DNA of 64,000 nucleotides from Acidimicrobiales bacterium (GTDB taxonomy: Bacteria > Actinomycetota > Acidimicrobiia > Acidimicrobiales > MedAcidi-G1). Every line of letters starts with the position of its first letter. Positions within the stretch are counted from its first letter, which is position 1. The translations under genes and the position numbers were made by a program. Positions 2,569 to 13,590 of the stretch are shown piece after piece. The DNA lies in the NCBI GenBank assembly GCA_030747595.1, contig JASLKK010000012.1, positions 1-64,000 on the forward strand, read 5' to 3'. The notes under the pieces were generated by a model that ran no database searches, was not told where the DNA came from, and saw only the letters and a list, made by a program, of their open reading frames with translations.

Positions 2569-4929
2569 TCAGCCCTCCGGGAAGGCGACGAATGGTTCAA
2601 CGTCGAAGGTCTCGGCGATGAGGCCGACTTCTGCTGCCAGGTCTACCGAGGGCTGAATGTTTGCGACCTCGGTGGTGGTCCGGTATTCGGTGAGGGCGAT
2701 GACCGCCGCCAACTCAGGGGTGAGGGCCGTGTAGGTCGGGAGGAAGGCCCGGAAGCCCGCCTCGTCGGCATGCATCAACTCCACCACCTCGGACCATGCG
2801 GCGCGTGCGCGCCGGATGGTCTCCTCGTTCTGACCTGCCCATGGCGCCATGGCCATGAAGCCACCGGACGTACCCTGCGCGACCCGACCACCGAACATGT
2901 CGTCGGCGATGACCTTCAGGCCCTGCATCTGGCCGATCGTAGTAAACGGTTCGAGGGACAGCATGGCGTCGATCGACCCCGACATGACCGCGGGGATCTG
3001 CTCGGTTACTGGAACGGCGACGATCTCTACGGTCGAGGCGTCCATGCCGGCGTCCTGGAATGCCGTCAGCAGCGCGACGTGGAACACAGATCCCATCGCA
3101 CCAACGCCCACGGTGCGACCGGCGAGGTCGGCGAGGGTCTCCATGTCGGAGTCCGGGCTGACCAAGACCTTGCCCTGGGCCGCTGCGAGTACCGCGCCGT
3201 CGATGACGGCCCTGAACGGTGCGCCGTTGGCCCACATCGCGGCGAGCGGATGCCACGCGGTGATACCCATGTCGCCTTCACCGGCGGCGACGAGCTGCGC
3301 GGCTGCCGGCCCCGACGCGGCGGTCTCGATGGCCACCTCCAGGCCGTGGGCGGCATAGTGGCCACACCTGGCGGCATAAATGATCGGAGCGACGTCGACG
3401 ATCGGCACGACCACGACACGCAAGGGCAGCACGTCATCGGCAACCTCTGTCGACCGACCAAGCGGACACTCAGCGTCGACTGCGACCAGAGCGGTACCGA
3501 CGATGCTTGAGCCGCCTGGGGCGTACTCATAGATGACGTTGGCGTTGGACGCCGCGATGTCACCAGAATCGGCGTGACCGATCACGGTGATCTTCTGTGA
3601 GCCACAGTCGCCGAACGCGTCACACGACATCAGGCCAATGATCCCCGAGTAGTCAGTCACAGAACTCAGGTATTCGCGTACCCCAGCCCGGTCGATGACC
3701 AGCGTGCCGTCGTCGTCGTAGCTGGCCGCAGCGATCGCGTCGAGCAGCAGCGTCGTGGCGTCATAACTGTGCGCCCAGAACGGCGCCGCTGGGTCCTCGC
3801 CCCACTCGGCGTTGTAGGCAGCCAGGAACGAATCGGCCGTCTGGCCGGTCGACTGGTTCGTGTTAATGCCGTAGCGGATATCCGGACCCGAGAAATACAA
3901 GCCCTCGGATTCCGGAATAGCCATGAAGTTGCTGTTCAGCAGGCCGTCGGCCGCCATCATCGTCGTGTCACCCAAGCCAGCGACCTGGCTTGCCTGCTGG
4001 ATGATGAAGTCACCCTCGGGTTGGAAGATCGGAAAGAACAGCATCTCCGGGGAACCCGCTGCGATTTCGGTCAACACCGGAACCATGTCCGTGTCGCCCT
4101 TGTTCACCGCGGTGAACGTAGTGATTGCCCCCCCGTGGGCCTCGAACGCATCGGCGAACGCCTGGGCCAAACCCTGCGTGTACGGATCTCCGTCATGGAT
4201 CGCCGCAGCCGTCGTCACACCGAGCACCTCGATGGCGAAGCCAGCCGCCGCCGCGCCCTGGTACAGGTCGTTGTGAGCGGTCCGGTAGTAGCCCGGGTAG
4301 TTGTTCGAACCGGCCGTGCCAGCCAGGTCGCTGGTGAGCGACGGCGAGGTGTTCGATCCCGAGATCATGACCATGCCGGCCTCGCTGATCAGCGGAGCCG
4401 CAGAAGCCGCAGCGCCCGAACACGACGTACCGATCACGCCCACGACGTCCTCGTCGGCCACGATCGTCTGAGCGGCCGCCTGGCCACCATCAGCCGAACA
4501 CAGGTCGTCCAGACCCGTGCCGATCGTGACGTCGTGGCCACCAATGGATCCGTAGTCGCGAATAGCGAGTTCGACACCGCGCTGGTTCGGAATGCCGAGG
4601 AACGCCACATCACCGGAAATCGCGTTCAACGACCGAATCTGGATGTCCTCACCGGAATCCACTTCAACAGTGCCCAACGAACCATCACCCAGATGGTCGG
4701 CAACCGTGGCGACCTCCTCTGGAGCCGGTGCAGCCGTAGTAGCCGGTGCAGCCGTAGTAGCCGGTGCAGCCGTAGTAGCCGGTGCAGCCGTAGTAGCTGG
4801 TGCAGCCGTAGTAGCCACAGAAGCAGCGGTGTCTTCGGTGGCGTCAGAGCCGCATGCCGCGGCCATCAGGGCGAGTGCAGTGAGAATCGCCAACGGCAAA
4901 CGCCAAGTGCTTCTACGTCCAAACTTCAT
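2569..4929 (-). CDS. Fused dual-domain substrate-binding lipoprotein (LIV-type plus NMT1/THI5-type)
   Basis: 786-aa secreted lipoprotein. The signal peptide ends in a lipobox (LMAAAC, lipid-anchored Cys26), followed by a Thr/Ala/Pro linker of five TAAPAT units (residues 41-70). Residues about 95-470 match the branched-chain amino-acid receptor type (Peripla_BP_6, type I fold). Residues about 503-786 match the NMT1/THI5/SsuA type (type II fold). The junction at about 472-500 contains a hydrophobic stretch ending in AEC, which looks like a decayed lipobox. This suggests that two adjacent receptor genes merged. The operon has only SsuB/TauC-type partners and no LIV-type permeases. The frame is uninterrupted. 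The ligands are unknown. Confidence 0.9.
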   Translation of the reverse strand: MKFGRRSTWRLPLAILTALALMAAACGSDATEDTAASVATTAAPATTAAPATTAAPATTAAPATTAAPAPEEVATVADHLGDGSLGTVEVDSGEDIQIRSLNAISGDVAFLGIPNQRGVELAIRDYGSIGGHDVTIGTGLDDLCSADGGQAAAQTIVADEDVVGVIGTSCSGAAASAAPLISEAGMVMISGSNTSPSLTSDLAGTAGSNNYPGYYRTAHNDLYQGAAAAGFAIEVLGVTTAAAIHDGDPYTQGLAQAFADAFEAHGGAITTFTAVNKGDTDMVPVLTEIAAGSPEMLFFPIFQPEGDFIIQQASQVAGLGDTTMMAADGLLNSNFMAIPESEGLYFSGPDIRYGINTNQSTGQTADSFLAAYNAEWGEDPAAPFWAHSYDATTLLLDAIAAASYDDDGTLVIDRAGVREYLSSVTDYSGIIGLMSCDAFGDCGSQKITVIGHADSGDIAASNANVIYEYAPGGSSIVGTALVAVDAECPLGRSTEVADDVLPLRVVVVPIVDVAPIIYAARCGHYAAHGLEVAIETAASGPAAAQLVAAGEGDMGITAWHPLAAMWANGAPFRAVIDGAVLAAAQGKVLVSPDSDMETLADLAGRTVGVGAMGSVFHVALLTAFQDAGMDASTVEIVAVPVTEQIPAVMSGSIDAMLSLEPFTTIGQMQGLKVIADDMFGGRVAQGTSGGFMAMAPWAGQNEETIRRARAAWSEVVELMHADEAGFRAFLPTYTALTPELAAVIALTEYRTTTEVANIQPSVDLAAEVGLIAETFDVEPFVAFPEG
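4720..4809 (-). repeat. 18-bp tandem repeat encoding the lipoprotein linker
   Basis: Five tandem 18-bp units encode residues 41-70 of the fused binding protein as TAAPAT repeats, the last unit ending in AP. The near-identical DNA units and low-complexity Thr/Ala/Pro product are typical of a flexible cell-surface spacer between the lipid anchor and the binding domain. Unit number may vary by slippage. Confidence 0.85.
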
Positions 4930-7121: not shown

Positions 7122-7150
7122 TTGACAGAACCTTACCGTTTGGATAAACA
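7122..7150 (+). promoter_or_regulatory. Possible promoter for a leaderless LLM operon transcript
   Basis: A perfect -35 hexamer TTGACA (7122-7127) is followed after 17 nt by TAAACA (7145-7150), a moderate -10. Transcription starting about 7 nt later would begin at the ATG at 7158. No ribosome-binding site precedes that ATG, which fits a leaderless mRNA, common in actinobacteria. Inference only. Confidence 0.4.
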
Positions 7151-7157
7151 CTCGACT

Positions 7158-8216
7158 ATGGAACTTGGACTGCTGACTCTCGGCGACCACCGTGCTGACC
7201 CGGCGACAGGTGTACGCACCACGCAGGCCGAACGCCATCGCGACATACTGGAGTACCTCGACTACGCCGAACCGGCGGGGTTCGATGCGGTGTTCGTGGG
7301 GGAGCACCACTTCAGTGATTTCATCACTGCATCGCCGCCTGTGTTCCTGGGGTGGCTTGCGGGGCGAACTTCGACGATCACATTGGGTTCCGGCGTGACG
7401 TTGCTGCCTCATCATGATGCGGTGAAGGTCGCCGAGGACTTTGCCACCGTCGACGTCGTGTCAGACGGCCGGGCTGAAGTCTGGGTCGGACGAGGGGTTG
7501 AGCCGTACGCCTATACCTACTTCGGTCAGGACGTTCAACGAGCTGTTGATATGCAACGGGAGGGTCTGGAACTGCTGCTGCGGTTGTGGACCGAATCCGA
7601 TGTGACGTGGTCGGGCGAGTTCCGGCCACCGCTCAACGGTGTCACTCTGCAGCCCCGGCCTGTGCAGGAGCCATGCATCCCCATCAAGGTCGCCGTCTCA
7701 CGCGAAGAGTCAGCTATCGCCGCAGCTGAGCTCGGCCTCGGTATCTCGATCACCATGTTGTCCTTCGACCGCAACCAGCTCGCCCCAGTGGTTGCTGCCT
7801 ACCAAGAGGCCTTTTCCGACGCCGGCCACGCGCACAACCCCTGGGTAGACCTCCACGCTCACGTTCATGTGGCACCAACATCGCAGGAGGCTCGAGATCA
7901 TCTCAGCATCTACCAGGCGCCCTTCCAACGCTGGGTGTTTGGCAAGCGGATGGGCGTGCACGAAGACGAGGTCGAGCTTCCGGCTCGCGTCACCGACTTC
8001 GCGAGCCCCGAGTGTGCGGTGGTGAACGGCAGCCCGGAAGAAGTGGTCGACCGCATCGGCGCCTTTACCTCGCTCGCGCCGATCGATCGTTTCACCATTC
8101 AGAGTGACTATGGCGGTCAGCCCTGGCCACTGGTGATGCGTTCCCTCGATCTGTTCGGCGGTGTGATGGACCAGGTCCGAGCGCTGCAACCGGCACCCGC
8201 CCTCGCCCAGGCATAG
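7158..8216 (+). CDS. LLM-class flavin-dependent oxidoreductase (luciferase-like monooxygenase)
   Basis: 352-aa TIM-barrel enzyme of the bacterial luciferase superfamily (MELGLLTLGD near the N-terminus, GEHHF at about residue 54, GRGVEP in the flavin region). Family members use FMNH2 or F420 to oxidise small molecules. ATG at 7158 aligns with the usual short family N-terminus, whereas an earlier start would add about 60 implausible residues from the exporter gene end. It is the first gene of an operon with a nitroreductase, SnoaL-like protein, AhpD-like selenoprotein candidate, aldehyde dehydrogenase and CoA ligase. The nitroreductase could supply reduced flavin. The substrate is unknown. Confidence 0.9.
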   Translation: MELGLLTLGDHRADPATGVRTTQAERHRDILEYLDYAEPAGFDAVFVGEHHFSDFITASPPVFLGWLAGRTSTITLGSGVTLLPHHDAVKVAEDFATVDVVSDGRAEVWVGRGVEPYAYTYFGQDVQRAVDMQREGLELLLRLWTESDVTWSGEFRPPLNGVTLQPRPVQEPCIPIKVAVSREESAIAAAELGLGISITMLSFDRNQLAPVVAAYQEAFSDAGHAHNPWVDLHAHVHVAPTSQEARDHLSIYQAPFQRWVFGKRMGVHEDEVELPARVTDFASPECAVVNGSPEEVVDRIGAFTSLAPIDRFTIQSDYGGQPWPLVMRSLDLFGGVMDQVRALQPAPALAQA

Positions 8217-8225
8217 GAGTCAGCA

Positions 8226-8867
8226 ATGGATGCACTCGAGCTCTTGTACACGACCAGGGCCATGCGTCGCCTGGCCCTGGACCCCATCGACGACGAAACT
8301 ATCGCCAAACTCCTCGACGCCGCGATGCGCGGACCGTCGGGGGGTAACCGGATGCGCGTCCGGTTCGTCGTAGTCCGCGACCGCAGTACGAAGTCCGAGC
8401 TCCAGACGCTCTACGCGGACGGGATGAAGCAGCTCTACAGTGCACCGGCCCCACCACCGGACCCCAACGACCCGGCGGGGCCACCGGACCCTGCAACCGT
8501 CAAGACCGCAGGCTGGCTGGCAGAAAACCTGGTGGACGTCCCAGTCTTGATCTTCGTAGTCGGGCTCCCGGGGTTCGGCTCCACGTCGTTCCCGATTGCC
8601 TGGCAGTTCTGTCTCGCTGCCCGTGCCTGCGGTCTCGGGACGACCTTCACCACCGTGCTCCGGTTCCATCAAGAGGAGACCGACCGACTCATCGGGATTC
8701 CCGAAGATTCCGACTGGGAGTTCCACGCAATGATCCCGGTGGGAAAGCCGCTGGGCAACTGGGGGCTCGCCAAGCGTCCCCCTGTGAACCGTTTCACCTA
8801 CGACGAGACGTTCGGCAACCCTGTCGACTGGAAAGTGGACCAGCCATGCTGGAACCCAGCCTTGTAG
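8226..8867 (+). CDS. Nitroreductase-family flavoprotein
   Basis: 213-aa FMN-dependent nitroreductase/flavin-reductase-like protein. The N-terminal LLYTTRAMRRL and MRGPSGGNRMRVRF segments correspond to the family's FMN-binding region (usual form: R-S-x-R, then A-x-x-x-P-S-x-x-N-x-Q). The C-terminal part has the AFRAL-like region seen here as AARACGLG and the dimer-swap tail. It starts 9 nt after the monooxygenase stop with an AGGAG site, so it is co-transcribed. Its likely roles are NAD(P)H-dependent flavin reduction for the LLM enzyme or reduction of the pathway substrate. Confidence 0.88.
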   Translation: MDALELLYTTRAMRRLALDPIDDETIAKLLDAAMRGPSGGNRMRVRFVVVRDRSTKSELQTLYADGMKQLYSAPAPPPDPNDPAGPPDPATVKTAGWLAENLVDVPVLIFVVGLPGFGSTSFPIAWQFCLAARACGLGTTFTTVLRFHQEETDRLIGIPEDSDWEFHAMIPVGKPLGNWGLAKRPPVNRFTYDETFGNPVDWKVDQPCWNPAL

Positions 8868-8899
8868 TGGACGATCAGGGCCAACAGGGGGCATCGGAC

Positions 8900-9313
8900 A
8901 TGCCTGACTACCGCGGCCTCATGACACGGTTCCGGTGGGCCTACGTCAGCATGAGCACCGAGGGCCTCGCAGAGGTTTTGGCCCCCGGCTTCAGGTGGAA
9001 CCTCCACTACTTCAACGTTGATGATCCGCTGCCGACCGGCAGGGTCCTCAGCGGTCTGGACGAGATGATCGAAGAGCTTCGATGGCGAAAGAAGAACTGG
9101 GCCCGTGTCCGGTTCAACTTCCTGGCCGAACGCTTCGCTCCCCGCCTGGTGGTGCAGACCTTCCGGATGTCCGCCATCGACGTGAAGGAAGAGCGGGCCT
9201 TCAAGGTCGACGTCGTTGACCTCTACGACATCACGGAGGATGAGCGCATGCTCACGAAGAGCACCTACTGGAAGTACCAGCAGCCGGATCCGACAGAAGC
9301 GAGGTTGGTGTAG
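8900..9313 (+). CDS. SnoaL-like (NTF2-fold) protein
   Basis: 137-aa small soluble protein with the look of an NTF2/SnoaL cone: an amphipathic N-terminal helix (YRGLMTRFRWAYVSM), then alternating beta strands ending in YDITEDERM. NTF2-fold proteins act as small isomerases, hydrolases or binding partners. No catalytic assignment is possible here. The start at 8900 is preferred because AGGGGG lies 9 nt upstream. An ATG at 8846, overlapping the nitroreductase, would add 18 residues. The stop (TAG) overlaps the GTG start of the following gene by one base. Confidence 0.72.
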   Translation: MPDYRGLMTRFRWAYVSMSTEGLAEVLAPGFRWNLHYFNVDDPLPTGRVLSGLDEMIEELRWRKKNWARVRFNFLAERFAPRLVVQTFRMSAIDVKEERAFKVDVVDLYDITEDERMLTKSTYWKYQQPDPTEARLV

Positions 9314-10401
9314 TGGTGACACAGACGAGCATCTACGAGACCGAGTTGCCCATTCGGGACGCTGTCCTGAAGGCCCACGCGGCACTACTCGAGCACTGGG
9401 CCTCCCCGGGGACATGGTGGTCGGCGACCGAGCGCTTCGCCATCGTCAACGAGGTGCGTACGGCCTGGGACGCCGACCAGTTGTCGCCGTGGGTCAGGCC
9501 TTCGACCGTGGATGGCCTCGTGGCCGATGACCATGTGCTGCCGGCTGCGGTGGTGGACATCATCTGGCGCATCACCAACCACACCTCGACGCTCACCCGC
9601 GACTGGTACGACTCGTTTGTCCCGGACCAGGTGAGCGCAGAACAGTACGTGGAGGTTCTCAGCCTGGTCTCAATGGCGAACATGGTTGACCGATTCGCCG
9701 ACTCGTTGTCGATGGATCGCCTCGCCCTATCCGAGCCCCGAGCCGGAGAGCCGAGTCGATACCGACCCGACGGCGTCGAGATCGCCCGGCACTGGGTTCC
9801 GACCGCTTCCCTCGAGGACACCCACTGGTCCCCGGACATGCCCATGGAGGCGCCCAACGTCCGCCGGACCCTGAACCTCGTTCCCGCCGAGGCCGCGATC
9901 TTGTGGATGCTCATAGACGCCCACTACATCGCCGGAGGAATCCTCAGCGAGCTCGATTCCGGCCGGAACTGGTCGATCGAGCGTCCACACTTCGAACTGC
10001 TCGCCACCCGTACCTCTGCTCTTAACGAGTGCTTCTATTGAGCGACCACCCACGCGGTCCTACTCGGTCAGAGTGGGCAAGGTGAGGAGATTTCGCTGGA
10101 GGTGGCGACGGGACCCGGACACGGCGATTGCGGGGTCGACAACGGTGAGCTGGTGGCGCGGTTGGTCGACGCGACATTCGGGCGAGGTGACTTGGACGAG
10201 GTGAAGGCGGAGGTCAGGTCGACCATGGGTGACGCTGTCCTCGTCGACTGTCTGACCGTGATAGCTGGCTTCCACATGGCCAACCGGCTGGTCAACGCGA
10301 CCGGTGCTCCAATCGACCCGTTCATGGTCGAGCCCACGAAGGCAGTTGCGGGCGTGCTCGGGGCGAACGAGTTCCTCAGCCGCGTGGACGCACCGGGATG
10401 A
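9313..10401 (+). CDS. AhpD-like carboxymuconolactone decarboxylase family protein, candidate selenoprotein (in-frame TGA at 10039)
   Basis: Conventional reading stops after 242 aa at ...NECFY. The TGA at 10039-10041 falls where the second redox cysteine should be, and the same frame stays open for 119 more sense codons to 10401 (362 aa with Sec243). Active-site spacing is E228-x11-C240-x2-U243-x3-H247, the same as the E118/C130/C133/H137 arrangement known for mycobacterial AhpD. The downstream part resembles the helical remainder of a CMD fold. A hairpin with a GGUCA loop begins 17 nt after the TGA (10059-10077). AhpD-like proteins reduce peroxides or act as thiol-disulfide partners. The alternative is a C-to-A mutation making a pseudogene. 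I favour selenocysteine. Confidence 0.78.
10059..10077 (+). promoter_or_regulatory. Putative bacterial SECIS hairpin
   Basis: Seven pairs (CCTACTC with GAGTGGG, one of them T.G) close a five-base GGTCA loop. The loop starts 24 nt after the last base of the TGA at 10039-10041, within the range usual for bacterial SECIS elements, and begins with the GGU expected for SelB binding. The hairpin is inside the continued coding frame, as required. A weaker alternative pairing uses CCCAC at 10049-10053 with the same right arm. Confidence 0.65.
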
Positions 10402-10417: not shown

Positions 10418-11842
10418 ATGAAGAACACGGGGCAGTTCTACATCGATGGAAGTTGGGTGTCCCCGGTGGGCGCTGACACGCTCGACGTGATCAACCCGGC
10501 GACTGAGGAATCCGTTGCCACAATCGCCATGGGCGGCCCGGCCGATGTGGATGCCGCGGTAGCAGCGGCGAAGGCCGCGTTCGCGACGTATTCGCTGACG
10601 ACCGTCGACGAGCGTCTGGACCTGTTGGACAGGGTCCGTTCGGCCCTCCGACCCCGCCTCGAGGAGTTCGCCGAGGCGATCACCTTGGAGATGGGGGCAC
10701 CACGGGGCCTGGCGAGGGCGATGCAGGCAGAGATGGGGATCTACCACGTCACCACGGCGATGGAGGTGCTGAGTACCTACGAGTTCGAGTACGTCAAGGA
10801 CACAGCCCTGATCGTGAGAGAGCCACTGGGCGTGGTTGGGATGATCACCCCGTGGAACTGGCCCATCAACCAGTTGGCCTGCAAGGTCGCTCCAGCCTTG
10901 GCGGCCGGGTGCACGATGGTGGTGAAGCCCTCGGAGGTCTCGCCATTGAGCGCAATCGTCTTCGCGGAAGCCCTCGACGAGGCAGGAGTTCCCGCTGGCG
11001 TCTTTAACCTGGTCAACGGTGACGGGCTGAACGTGGGTGCATACCTGTCGGCCCATCCTGACATCGACATGGTGTCCTTCACCGGTTCGACCCGGGCGGG
11101 CATCGAGGTCGCCAAGAATGCGGCACCGACCGTAAAGCGCGTCGCACAGGAACTCGGTGGGAAGTCCGCCAACATCATCCTCGACGATGCCTGCTTCGAG
11201 GAGGCGATAAGCCGTGACGCGTTCGAGATGTGCCTCAACTCGGGCCAGTCCTGCAACGCCGGCACCCGCATGCTGGTCCCACGAGACCGCATGGACGAGG
11301 CGGCCCGACTGGCCGAGCTGGGGATGGACCAGCTGTCCGTCGGCGATCCACAAGACCTGGCAAACACCGTCGGGCCGGTCGCGTCCGAAGCCCAGTGGAT
11401 CAAGATCCAGGAGTTGATCCAGATCGGCATCGACGAGGGTGCCACCCTGGTCTGCGGGGGCTGCGGGCGACCCGATGGGTTGGACACCGGCTTCTACGTG
11501 CGACCCACCCTGTTTGCCGACGTCACCAACGACATGCGCATCGCCCGGGAGGAGATCTTCGGTCCGGTTCTGGTGATCATCGGTTACGAGGATGACGACG
11601 ACGCCGTGGACATCGCCAACGACACGTCGTACGGGCTCTCGGGCTACATCTCGGGTAGTCACGACCGGGCACTTGCGGTCGCCCGCCGGATCAGGACTGG
11701 AGCCATGCACCTGAACGGAGCCGGCCCCGACCTCCACGCACCCTTCGGGGGCTACAAGCAGTCCGGCAACGGCCGTGAATGGGGCAGGCACGGCTTCGAG
11801 GAGTACCTGGAGACCAAGGCAGTGCTGGGAGCTGGGAGTTGA
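10418..11842 (+). CDS. NAD(P)-dependent aldehyde dehydrogenase
   Basis: 474-aa soluble ALDH superfamily enzyme that oxidises an aldehyde to an acid. Visible landmarks are TPWNWP (Asn147 of the oxyanion hole), VKPSE (about 169-173), FTGS (221-224, NAD loop), the general base in QELGGKS (E245), the nucleophile in NSGQSCNAG (C279) and EEIFGPV. ATG at 10418 is chosen because the FYIDGSW stretch is the usual ALDH N-terminus. An upstream ATG would overlap the AhpD-like gene. It begins 16 nt after the read-through end at 10401, consistent with the AhpD frame being translated to that point. Confidence 0.93.
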   Translation: MKNTGQFYIDGSWVSPVGADTLDVINPATEESVATIAMGGPADVDAAVAAAKAAFATYSLTTVDERLDLLDRVRSALRPRLEEFAEAITLEMGAPRGLARAMQAEMGIYHVTTAMEVLSTYEFEYVKDTALIVREPLGVVGMITPWNWPINQLACKVAPALAAGCTMVVKPSEVSPLSAIVFAEALDEAGVPAGVFNLVNGDGLNVGAYLSAHPDIDMVSFTGSTRAGIEVAKNAAPTVKRVAQELGGKSANIILDDACFEEAISRDAFEMCLNSGQSCNAGTRMLVPRDRMDEAARLAELGMDQLSVGDPQDLANTVGPVASEAQWIKIQELIQIGIDEGATLVCGGCGRPDGLDTGFYVRPTLFADVTNDMRIAREEIFGPVLVIIGYEDDDDAVDIANDTSYGLSGYISGSHDRALAVARRIRTGAMHLNGAGPDLHAPFGGYKQSGNGREWGRHGFEEYLETKAVLGAGS

Positions 11843-12042: not shown

Positions 12043-13590
12043 ATGACCAACATCCACTTTTCGCCACTACCCGATGTGGAGATCCCCGATTCCACGGTCA
12101 CCGACTACGTGTTCCGCAGCGCCGGCACCCACCCCGACCTTGTAGCGATGATCGACGGCGTCACCGGCTCGAGCCACACCTTCGCCGAGCTCACCACCGC
12201 GATCCGTGCCCTAGCGGGCGGGCTCACAGCTCGCGGCCTTGAGGTAGGCGCCATCGTTGCGCTGATGGCGCCGAACATGCCGGAGTTCGCGATCGTGTTC
12301 CATGGTGCAGCCGTGGCGGGCTTGGCGACGACGACGCTGAACCCCACCTACACCGCCGAAGAGATTCGCCATCAACTCATCGATTCGGGCGCAGTCCTGC
12401 TCTTCACGATCGAGGCGCTGGCACCGCTCGCCACCGAGGCCATCGAAGGGACAGCTGTCACCGACGTGATCTTCCTCGACAAGGCCGAAGGGTCCCAGCG
12501 CCTAGTCGGCATGTACGGGACCCCGAGCAATCAGGTAGCCGTCGACGTGGATGAACACGTGGTGACCCTGCCGTATTCGTCGGGCACTACTGGCCTGGCC
12601 AAAGGGGTCATGCTGACTCACAAGAACCTCGTGGCGAACCTCGCTCAGTGTGGGCCAGTCCTCGACGTACACCATGGGGAAGCCACCCTCGCTGTGCTGC
12701 CGTTCTTCCACATCTACGGGATGCAGGTCCTGATGAACAACCTGCTCGCCAACGGTGCAACGGTCATCACACTGCCGCGATTCGACTTCGTGCGTGCTCT
12801 CGAACTCTTCCAAGAGCACCGCATCACGAAGTTCTACGCCGTCCCACCGATGATTCTCGCCCTGGCCAAACAGCCCATCGTCGACGACTACGACCTGTCG
12901 TCGCTGTCACTCATCATGTCCGGAGCGGCGCCGCTCGGAGGAGACCTAGCCGATGATGCCGCGAAACGGGTCGGATGCGAGGTCGTGCAGGGCTTCGGCA
13001 TGACCGAGCTCTCTCCGGTGAGTCACGCAACGCTGGCCGGCCAGGGCAAAGCCGGGTCTTCTGGCGTCACGATCCCGAACACCGAGTCACGGATCGTCGA
13101 CGAGGCAGGCAACGACGTGCCTGCGGGCCACGACGGTGAGCTGTGGGTGCGGGGACCGCAAGTGATGAAGGGGTATCTCAACAACGAGGGGGCAACCGCT
13201 GCGACCATTGATCGCGACGGCTGGCTGCATACCGGCGATGTCGGCCACATCGACAGCGACGGTCACCTGTTCATCGTGGACCGGCTCAAGGAGCTCATCA
13301 AATACAAGGGGTTCCAGGTTGCCCCCGCAGAGCTGGAGGCCCTCCTGCTCACGCACGACGCAGTGGTCGACTGCGCCGTCGTTGGGATTCCCGACGACGA
13401 GGCCGGGGAACTACCCAAGGCCTTCATCGTACTGAATCCCGAAGCGACCGCTAACGAGGCTGACCTGCGTGAGTTCGTAGCCGGCAAGGTTGCGAGCTAC
13501 AAGCAACTGCGAGCCGTCGAGTTCATCGACGAGATTCCGAAGTCGGCCTCCGGCAAGATCCTCCGCCGATTCCTTCGCAGCGGCGCGTGA
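12043..13590 (+). CDS. AMP-dependent acyl-CoA ligase (4-coumarate/long-chain acyl-CoA synthetase type)
   Basis: 515-aa ANL-superfamily enzyme that activates a carboxylic acid with ATP and joins it to CoA. The phosphate loop YSSGTTGLAKG lies at about residue 178, GFGMTE is the A5 motif, the TGD(V) aspartate is in WLHTGDVG, and the C-terminal catalytic lysine is in SASGKILRR. It starts at ATG 12043 with GGGAGC upstream. As the last gene of the operon after an aldehyde dehydrogenase, it plausibly converts the acid produced there to a CoA thioester. The acid is unknown; an aryl or medium-chain acid fits the family. Confidence 0.93.
   Translation: MTNIHFSPLPDVEIPDSTVTDYVFRSAGTHPDLVAMIDGVTGSSHTFAELTTAIRALAGGLTARGLEVGAIVALMAPNMPEFAIVFHGAAVAGLATTTLNPTYTAEEIRHQLIDSGAVLLFTIEALAPLATEAIEGTAVTDVIFLDKAEGSQRLVGMYGTPSNQVAVDVDEHVVTLPYSSGTTGLAKGVMLTHKNLVANLAQCGPVLDVHHGEATLAVLPFFHIYGMQVLMNNLLANGATVITLPRFDFVRALELFQEHRITKFYAVPPMILALAKQPIVDDYDLSSLSLIMSGAAPLGGDLADDAAKRVGCEVVQGFGMTELSPVSHATLAGQGKAGSSGVTIPNTESRIVDEAGNDVPAGHDGELWVRGPQVMKGYLNNEGATAATIDRDGWLHTGDVGHIDSDGHLFIVDRLKELIKYKGFQVAPAELEALLLTHDAVVDCAVVGIPDDEAGELPKAFIVLNPEATANEADLREFVAGKVASYKQLRAVEFIDEIPKSASGKILRRFLRSGA

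Follow-up and report, generated by a model that had tools for sequence, protein, structure and literature searches.

A member of the AhpD-related selenoprotein family NF041238 in an Acidimicrobiales contig, with a predicted two-half AhpD-like fold and monooxygenase neighbours in its closest subgroup

Described relatives and the gene in the window

The active-site residues of AhpD are spaced as E-x11-C-x2-C-x3-H. NCBIfam holds a family model, NF041238 (AhpD_rel_CFYUT), under the product name 'alkylhydroperoxidase-related (seleno)protein'. According to the available part of a 2026 review, this family corresponds to the 'AhpD-related protein (hypothetical protein 1, Sargasso Sea metagenome)' and carries a CxxU motif (PMC13188914). 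Sargasso Sea hypothetical protein 1 goes back to 2005, when four sequences with a CXXU motif and a predicted SECIS element were described, in the excerpt available without functional evidence (PMC1088965), and other AhpD-like selenoproteins are listed in the accessible portions of PMC9312934 and PMC1794560. In the accessible portions of the literature examined, no function is reported for the NF041238 family. A two-domain architecture has been described as well: in the excerpt available of a 2024 review, fused AhpD pseudo-dimers from bacteria, whose N domain has no cysteine, are presented as Sestrin analogues (PMC11429811).

In the window, that is, the whole stretch of 64,000 nucleotides that was analysed, we found a gene of the NF041238 family with the following features:

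9313-10401, forward strand: AhpD_rel_CFYUT selenoprotein gene, 362 residues with the TGA read through; 322.8 bits to NF041238 against a cut-off of 175
10039-10041, forward strand: in-frame TGA, read as selenocysteine codon 243 on the basis of the translation and of the order-level matches spanning the motif, 122 of 124 of which have a TGA

The frame starts at GTG 9313, overlapping the stop of the upstream SnoaL-like gene, and ends at a terminal TGA at 10399-10401 (codon 363). A first-pass annotation of this DNA had placed a TGA at 10039 inside the frame 9313-10401, counted 119 sense codons after it and noted that it replaces the second Cys of an E-x11-C-x2-C-x3-H motif; the coordinates proved exact to the base, the count matched the translation, and the motif, E-x11-C-x2-U-x3-H, was located at E228, C240, U243 and H247. 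The active-site string reads C240, F241, Y242 and TGA243 followed by ATTH (CFYUATTH). Plain ORF calling truncates the protein at residue 242, whereby the active site is lost.

The match to NF041238 runs from residue 14 to 355 of the protein and from position 1 to 356 of the 357 in the model. Both have CxxU and a downstream SECIS element, and the only difference noticed is the residue after U, which is T in the model name but A in the window protein. Since NF041238 and Sargasso Sea hypothetical protein 1 already define this kind of selenoprotein, the window gene is a sound fresh example of a catalogued family, not a new family. What is added here is the two-half AhpD-like fold with a Sestrin2-like layout, together with the monooxygenase neighbours of the closest subgroup. 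The first-pass annotation had missed the NF041238 naming, its literature and the second, cysteine-free AhpD-like half at the N terminus, whereas its selenocysteine call itself was supported (see below). Matches above the NF041238 cut-off were present in 45 of 296 genomes in the class sample and 82 of 397 in the order sample; the phylum sample gave matches in 4 of 296 genomes, all from the same class.

Predicted fold

The structural model divides the protein into two regions:

9313-9828, forward strand: predicted N-terminal cysteine-free AhpD-like pseudo-domain (residues 1-172, boundary approximate), from AlphaFold2 and a match to 3c1l
9829-10398, forward strand: predicted C-terminal catalytic AhpD/CMD-like domain with C240-F-Y-U243-x3-H247, from a match to 6k40 and sub-cut-off matches to TIGR01926 and CMD

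The AlphaFold2 model of the whole protein, built with 44 sequences, is almost all helical (pLDDT 91.6, pTM 0.92), and the N half modelled alone reached a pLDDT of 92.5; residues 1-172 of the translation contain no cysteine. In VIA-align, Sestrin2 (5dj4) ranked top with a Z of 17.3 and an rmsd of 3.7 over 244 of the 362 residues, within residues 2-333. AhpD-like proteins came next, mostly on the C half, with Z reaching 12.9 (6k40, 2prr, 2oyo and 3c1l among the solved ones; 6k40 at Z 12.9, rmsd 3.0 over 172), and the debrominase Bmp8 stood at 11.8 (6ohi; rmsd 3.0 over 172). The best match of the N half was 3c1l (Z 8.7, rmsd 2.8 over 119). Z values of 8.7 and below fall in a range where helical proteins can match by common arrangement, and they are trusted here only on the ground that each of the first 12 rows is an AhpD-like chain, with the next, unrelated row at 3.4. 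With Foldseek, neither the whole model nor the N domain had a PDB match at E <=0.001; the top matches of the whole model were AhpD-like proteins. A sequence-profile match to 6k40 was obtained at 7.8e-15, and no sestrin chain was among the 23 sequence-profile matches at E up to 10. A single chain with two AhpD-like halves is thus predicted, the N half being free of cysteine and the C half bearing CxxU.

The Pfam CMD model PF02627 matches below its cut-off (15.8 bits against a gathering score of 23, E 0.014), as does TIGR01926 (37.7 bits against 81.8, 1.8e-9). We therefore label the protein AhpD-like, and not a scored CMD member, since CMD stays under its cut-off but the fold agrees. The fold of its C half is common to the AhpD-like or peroxidase-related proteins (TIGR01926, 6k40, 2prr, 2oyo, 3c1l; Z 11.9-12.9). 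Solved AhpD-like proteins have about 180-200 residues, whereas the window protein adds a preceding cysteine-free domain and has selenocysteine as the second cysteine. Sestrin2 has two AhpD-like halves in one chain, as the window protein has, but the two are only 8% identical, and the active pair of the window protein lies in the C half, whereas the redox Cys125 of Sestrin is placed in the N half in the excerpt available of PMC11429811. The N-terminal domain of the window protein is without such a redox cysteine. We did not accept membership in the Sestrins and kept the likeness of fold. An electronegative DDYDY hinge is ascribed to the Sestrin C-terminal domain in the same excerpt (PMC11429811), and a plain string match gave no DDYDY in the translation of the window protein.

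The fused pseudo-dimers of Corynebacterium ureicelerivorans and Comamonas aquatica, as described in that excerpt, combine a cysteine-free N domain with an active C domain, like the window protein; they have two cysteines where the window protein has selenocysteine, and are likened to it by description only (PMC11429811). Because of these pseudo-dimers, the two-domain layout counts as already known from the part of PMC11429811 available, and its presence in a selenocysteine family is the addition made here.

Gene neighbourhood and possible role

The selenoprotein gene lies among the following genes:

7158-8216, forward strand: luciferase-like (LLM class) flavin monooxygenase, start at ATG 7158 or GTG 6981; Pfam Bac_luciferase 2.3e-61 on 7149-8216
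8226-8867, forward strand: nitroreductase-family protein, possibly a flavin reductase partner; Pfam Nitroreductase 1.5e-15
8846-9313, forward strand: SnoaL-like protein, start uncertain, overlapping the preceding gene; SnoaL_2 5.3e-5, 24.2 bits against a cut-off of 27
10418-11842, forward strand: aldehyde dehydrogenase, 16 bp past the selenoprotein stop; Pfam Aldedh 4.7e-151
12043-13590, forward strand: acyl-CoA ligase; NCBIfam PRK06187 7.6e-123, 410.5 bits against a cut-off of 476

The flavin-monooxygenase/CoA-ligase surroundings given in the first-pass annotation were thus recovered as closely spaced genes for the monooxygenase, nitroreductase, SnoaL-like protein, selenoprotein, aldehyde dehydrogenase and CoA ligase. 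Elsewhere in the window, on the reverse strand at 2569-4929, a 786-aa ORF joins two substrate-binding proteins, Peripla_BP_6 (residues 96-432) and NMT1 (512-721), with a repeated TTAAPA stretch near the N end, before Peripla_BP_6; it is either an unusual fusion or an assembly join.

Neighbours were searched by tblastn with 13 window proteins in 89 loci, including 15 family loci with long flanks (L021-L025, L055, L108-L116). Six loci, L021, L022, L023, L024, L025 and L116, carry relatives with at least 50% identity to the window protein, and the LLM gene lies beside four of them (L021, L022, L024, L116); it was not found at L023 or L025, nor at any of the nine more distant long-flank loci (45% identity or less). 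The LLM neighbourhood is confined to the closest subgroup, and since most other loci have a flank of about 1.5 kb, absence of the LLM gene there means little. L021 and L022 are near-duplicates and have a TetR-like gene like the window's, L024 has the LLM gene and SnoaL, and L116 has the LLM gene, SnoaL and a broken-looking nitroreductase. The last is a nitroreductase-like gene of genome G473 with in-frame stops (L116:7503-8162, reverse strand). The paralogue in the window's own genome (L018, L055) lies in a different setting. Among the literature matches listed, in the portions available, no paper connects the selenocysteine family with flavin monooxygenases or with the two-domain layout of Sestrin.

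We regard it as highly probable that selenocysteine is inserted at position 243 and that the protein has a thiol/selenol redox role, most likely that of a thiol/selenol reductase. By analogy with AhpD, the redox centre would be Cys240-x-x-Sec243 in the C half, acting with Glu228 and His247, which we take to correspond to the AhpD active-site residues, and it would be recharged by a cellular dithiol. Its most likely substrate is a peroxide or some other reactive compound, perhaps a product of the adjacent luciferase-like monooxygenase, and it may in this way serve in peroxide detoxification. A connection with the product of the monooxygenase is tentative, and we give it appreciable but minority credence.

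A selenoprotein with a non-peroxide role, either reductive dehalogenation like that of the AhpD-fold debrominase Bmp8 or a Sestrin-like scaffold or redox sensor, is unlikely but a serious competitor: Bmp8 (6ohi, Z 11.8) and Sestrin2 (Z 17.3) are both among the structural matches, but Bmp8 scores level with plain AhpD-like proteins (Z 11.3-12.9), a common fold shows no function and, as to dehalogenation, the window genes that were scanned, which cover part of the window, include none recognised as halogen-related. Somewhat more doubtful is a selenocysteine-using bacterial counterpart of the Sestrin layout, in which a cysteine-free N half would be regulatory or serve for docking and the CxxU C half would, in the closest subgroup, act as a dedicated hydroperoxide or halo-compound reductase of the LLM pathway. 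For the thiol/selenol reductase that we favour, the two-domain fold and the LLM neighbours of the closest subgroup point to a concrete, testable substrate class.

Reading of the in-frame TGA

That TGA-243 is read as selenocysteine is strongly supported by a complete machinery and a conserved SECIS hairpin. A search for selA, selB, selD and tRNA-Sec, proposed in the first-pass annotation, returned all four in the window's own genome, which comprises 2.46 Mb in 84 contigs and is 95.87% complete. The tRNA-Sec is at C2:25067-25158 (66.9 bits, anticodon tca), selB at C2:9070-10131 (266.5 bits) with selA adjoining it at C2:10213-11367 (398.2 bits), and selD, which carries a TGA of its own in GUGCK, at C4:97516-98439 (357.5 bits). 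ARAGORN found no tRNA within the window, and the tRNA-Sec sits on another contig. Another hit of the tRNA-Sec model, at threshold with 47 bits, was rejected as tRNA-Ser(tga). A selA is present in 44 of the 45 family-bearing genomes, whereas in the whole sample about 200 of 296 genomes have a match above the selA cut-off. A one-sided Fisher test, which used 200 genomes where the list counts 201 and which ignores shared ancestry, gives p 1e-7; the sole exception is G234, about 90% complete, which has a family member but showed no selA.

The order survey listed 127 matches, three of them fragments short of the motif that were set aside. Among the remaining 124, a single in-frame TGA occurs in 121, two TGAs occur in one, and two matches lack it; its position within the frame was read for part of the rows. 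The CxxU TGA was read base by base at 81 sites, which were picked by a pattern requiring TGA and therefore carry no information on its frequency. In-frame TGA also occurs in MAGs labelled Gammaproteobacteria and Myxococcales. The three TGA-less relatives that were read, L105 and L106 of the order survey and L059 of the class survey, have TGC in its place. Homologues do not end at codon 243; such an end had been named in the first-pass annotation as adverse to its call. L106 (G353:C434) has TGC, yet its SECIS hairpin is kept (25.5 bits, starting at the TGC), which looks like a recent Sec-to-Cys switch; L105 scores only 9.4 bits to the SECIS model at the same place, and L059 has no match to it.

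Conservation extends through the protein on both sides of the TGA, with median identities of 43 relatives to the window protein of 31% before it and 27% after it. In alignment A2 (44 sequences, the window protein and these 43 relatives), E228, C240, residue 243 (entered as C where the codon is TGA) and H247 are invariant columns in 44 of 44, and R325, which like H247 follows the TGA, is also invariant in all 44; alignment A3 holds 42 sequences, L075 and L076 being excluded.

Downstream of the TGA lies the following element:

10059-10077, forward strand: bacterial SECIS hairpin, 7-bp stem, loop GGUCA, kept with compensatory changes over 71 sequences

The hairpin (CCUACUC-GGUCA-GAGUGGG) begins 17 nt past the TGA, as the first-pass annotation had it. 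SelB with Sec-tRNA(UCA) would read UGA-243 as selenocysteine because of this hairpin. The isolated 7-bp stem has a folding energy of -9.7 kcal/mol, and the energy of the 62-nt stretch is unexceptional (z -1.40, 21 of 200 shuffles equally stable). Energy alone is therefore no proof of the hairpin, and it is the comparison with relatives, with the protein conserved on both sides of the TGA, that places it above chance.

For the stem, 71 of the 81 TGA sites were aligned from the TGA onward (alignment A1), 10 identical or closely similar ones being dropped. At the stem columns 22-27/33-38, 90.4% of the cells are paired, compared to 29-53% for stems slid by one to three columns. None of 500 shuffles matched the stem in paired percentage, in both-side-changed cells or in covariation score, whereas 22 of 500 equalled it on pairs changed on both sides and 76 of 500 on further pair types; the shuffles ignore shared ancestry, and codons constrain the stem too. 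On both-sided changes, slid stems equal or beat the true one: the stem at -1 has 12 such cells where the true one has 9, and the stem at +2 has 4 such pairs where the true one has 3. The clearest compensation is at column pair 24-36, both third codon positions, which is G-C in 56 sequences, G-U in 12, A-U in 2 and unpaired in 1, the two A-U cases being the window itself and L078. In L076, U-A replaces C-G at columns 25-35. Pairing is weak at the outer columns 22-38, where 31 of 71 sequences are unpaired, while the innermost pair is constant and the loop G (column 29) is invariant in 71 of 71. RNAalifold independently predicts five of the six stem pairs. Retention of the 10059-10077 stem among TGA-bearing relatives, singled out for checking beforehand, is thus borne out; as to its covariation, likewise singled out, the window itself has a compensatory change.

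An Rfam search of 9900-10300 with E up to 1 had no family at the hairpin and a single match elsewhere, far under threshold. The SECIS model built from the family (R1) turned up no second convincing hairpin within the window, the runner-up scoring 12.7 bits (E 0.053). Nor did R1 match at the selD TGA (L107) or at the third AhpD-like gene, located in L058; the model is thus family-specific and leaves room for other selenoproteins.

It is very improbable that the TGA is a true stop and the downstream frame a decaying pseudogene or the result of a sequencing error. Decay was seen nearby in one relative, where the nitroreductase beside the L116 copy has in-frame stops, and none was specific to the window gene; against this reading, the in-frame TGA recurs in 122 of the 124 order-level matches spanning the motif, in the paralogue of the same genome and in the MAGs labelled Gammaproteobacteria and Myxococcales, and the protein is conserved past it. 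Reading of the TGA as Trp or Cys through a changed code or general suppression, without selenium, would also leave the frame open but has a negligible chance, the smallest of all, as 8 of the 11 window genes checked end in TGA, the selenoprotein gene included, the genome has tRNA-Sec, selA, selB and selD, the hairpin is conserved and the TGA-less relatives read have Cys. The Sec machinery, the recurrent TGA and the conserved stem support the selenocysteine reading, and none of the three findings named in the first-pass annotation as speaking against it (a genome lacking the machinery, homologues ending before the codon, a stem not conserved among relatives with TGA) was made.

Several further copies were noted in the surveys. 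A family member with two in-frame TGAs lies at G497:C18:83529-84458. At L113 (G531:C16), three family matches occur within 12 kb on one contig, two of them in tandem, and the second tandem copy has one broken SECIS stem pair, the weak outer pair being uncounted. The window's own genome holds a same-family paralogue at G000:C4:181988-182989 (L018, L055), with one TGA and 44% identity to the window protein. It also holds a third AhpD-like frame at G000:C2:95244 (L020:1789), which measures about 184 aa from stop to stop and contains CHYU-x3-H and a single in-frame TGA; at 51.3 bits it falls under the NF041238 cut-off, and it is likely a further AhpD-like selenoprotein.
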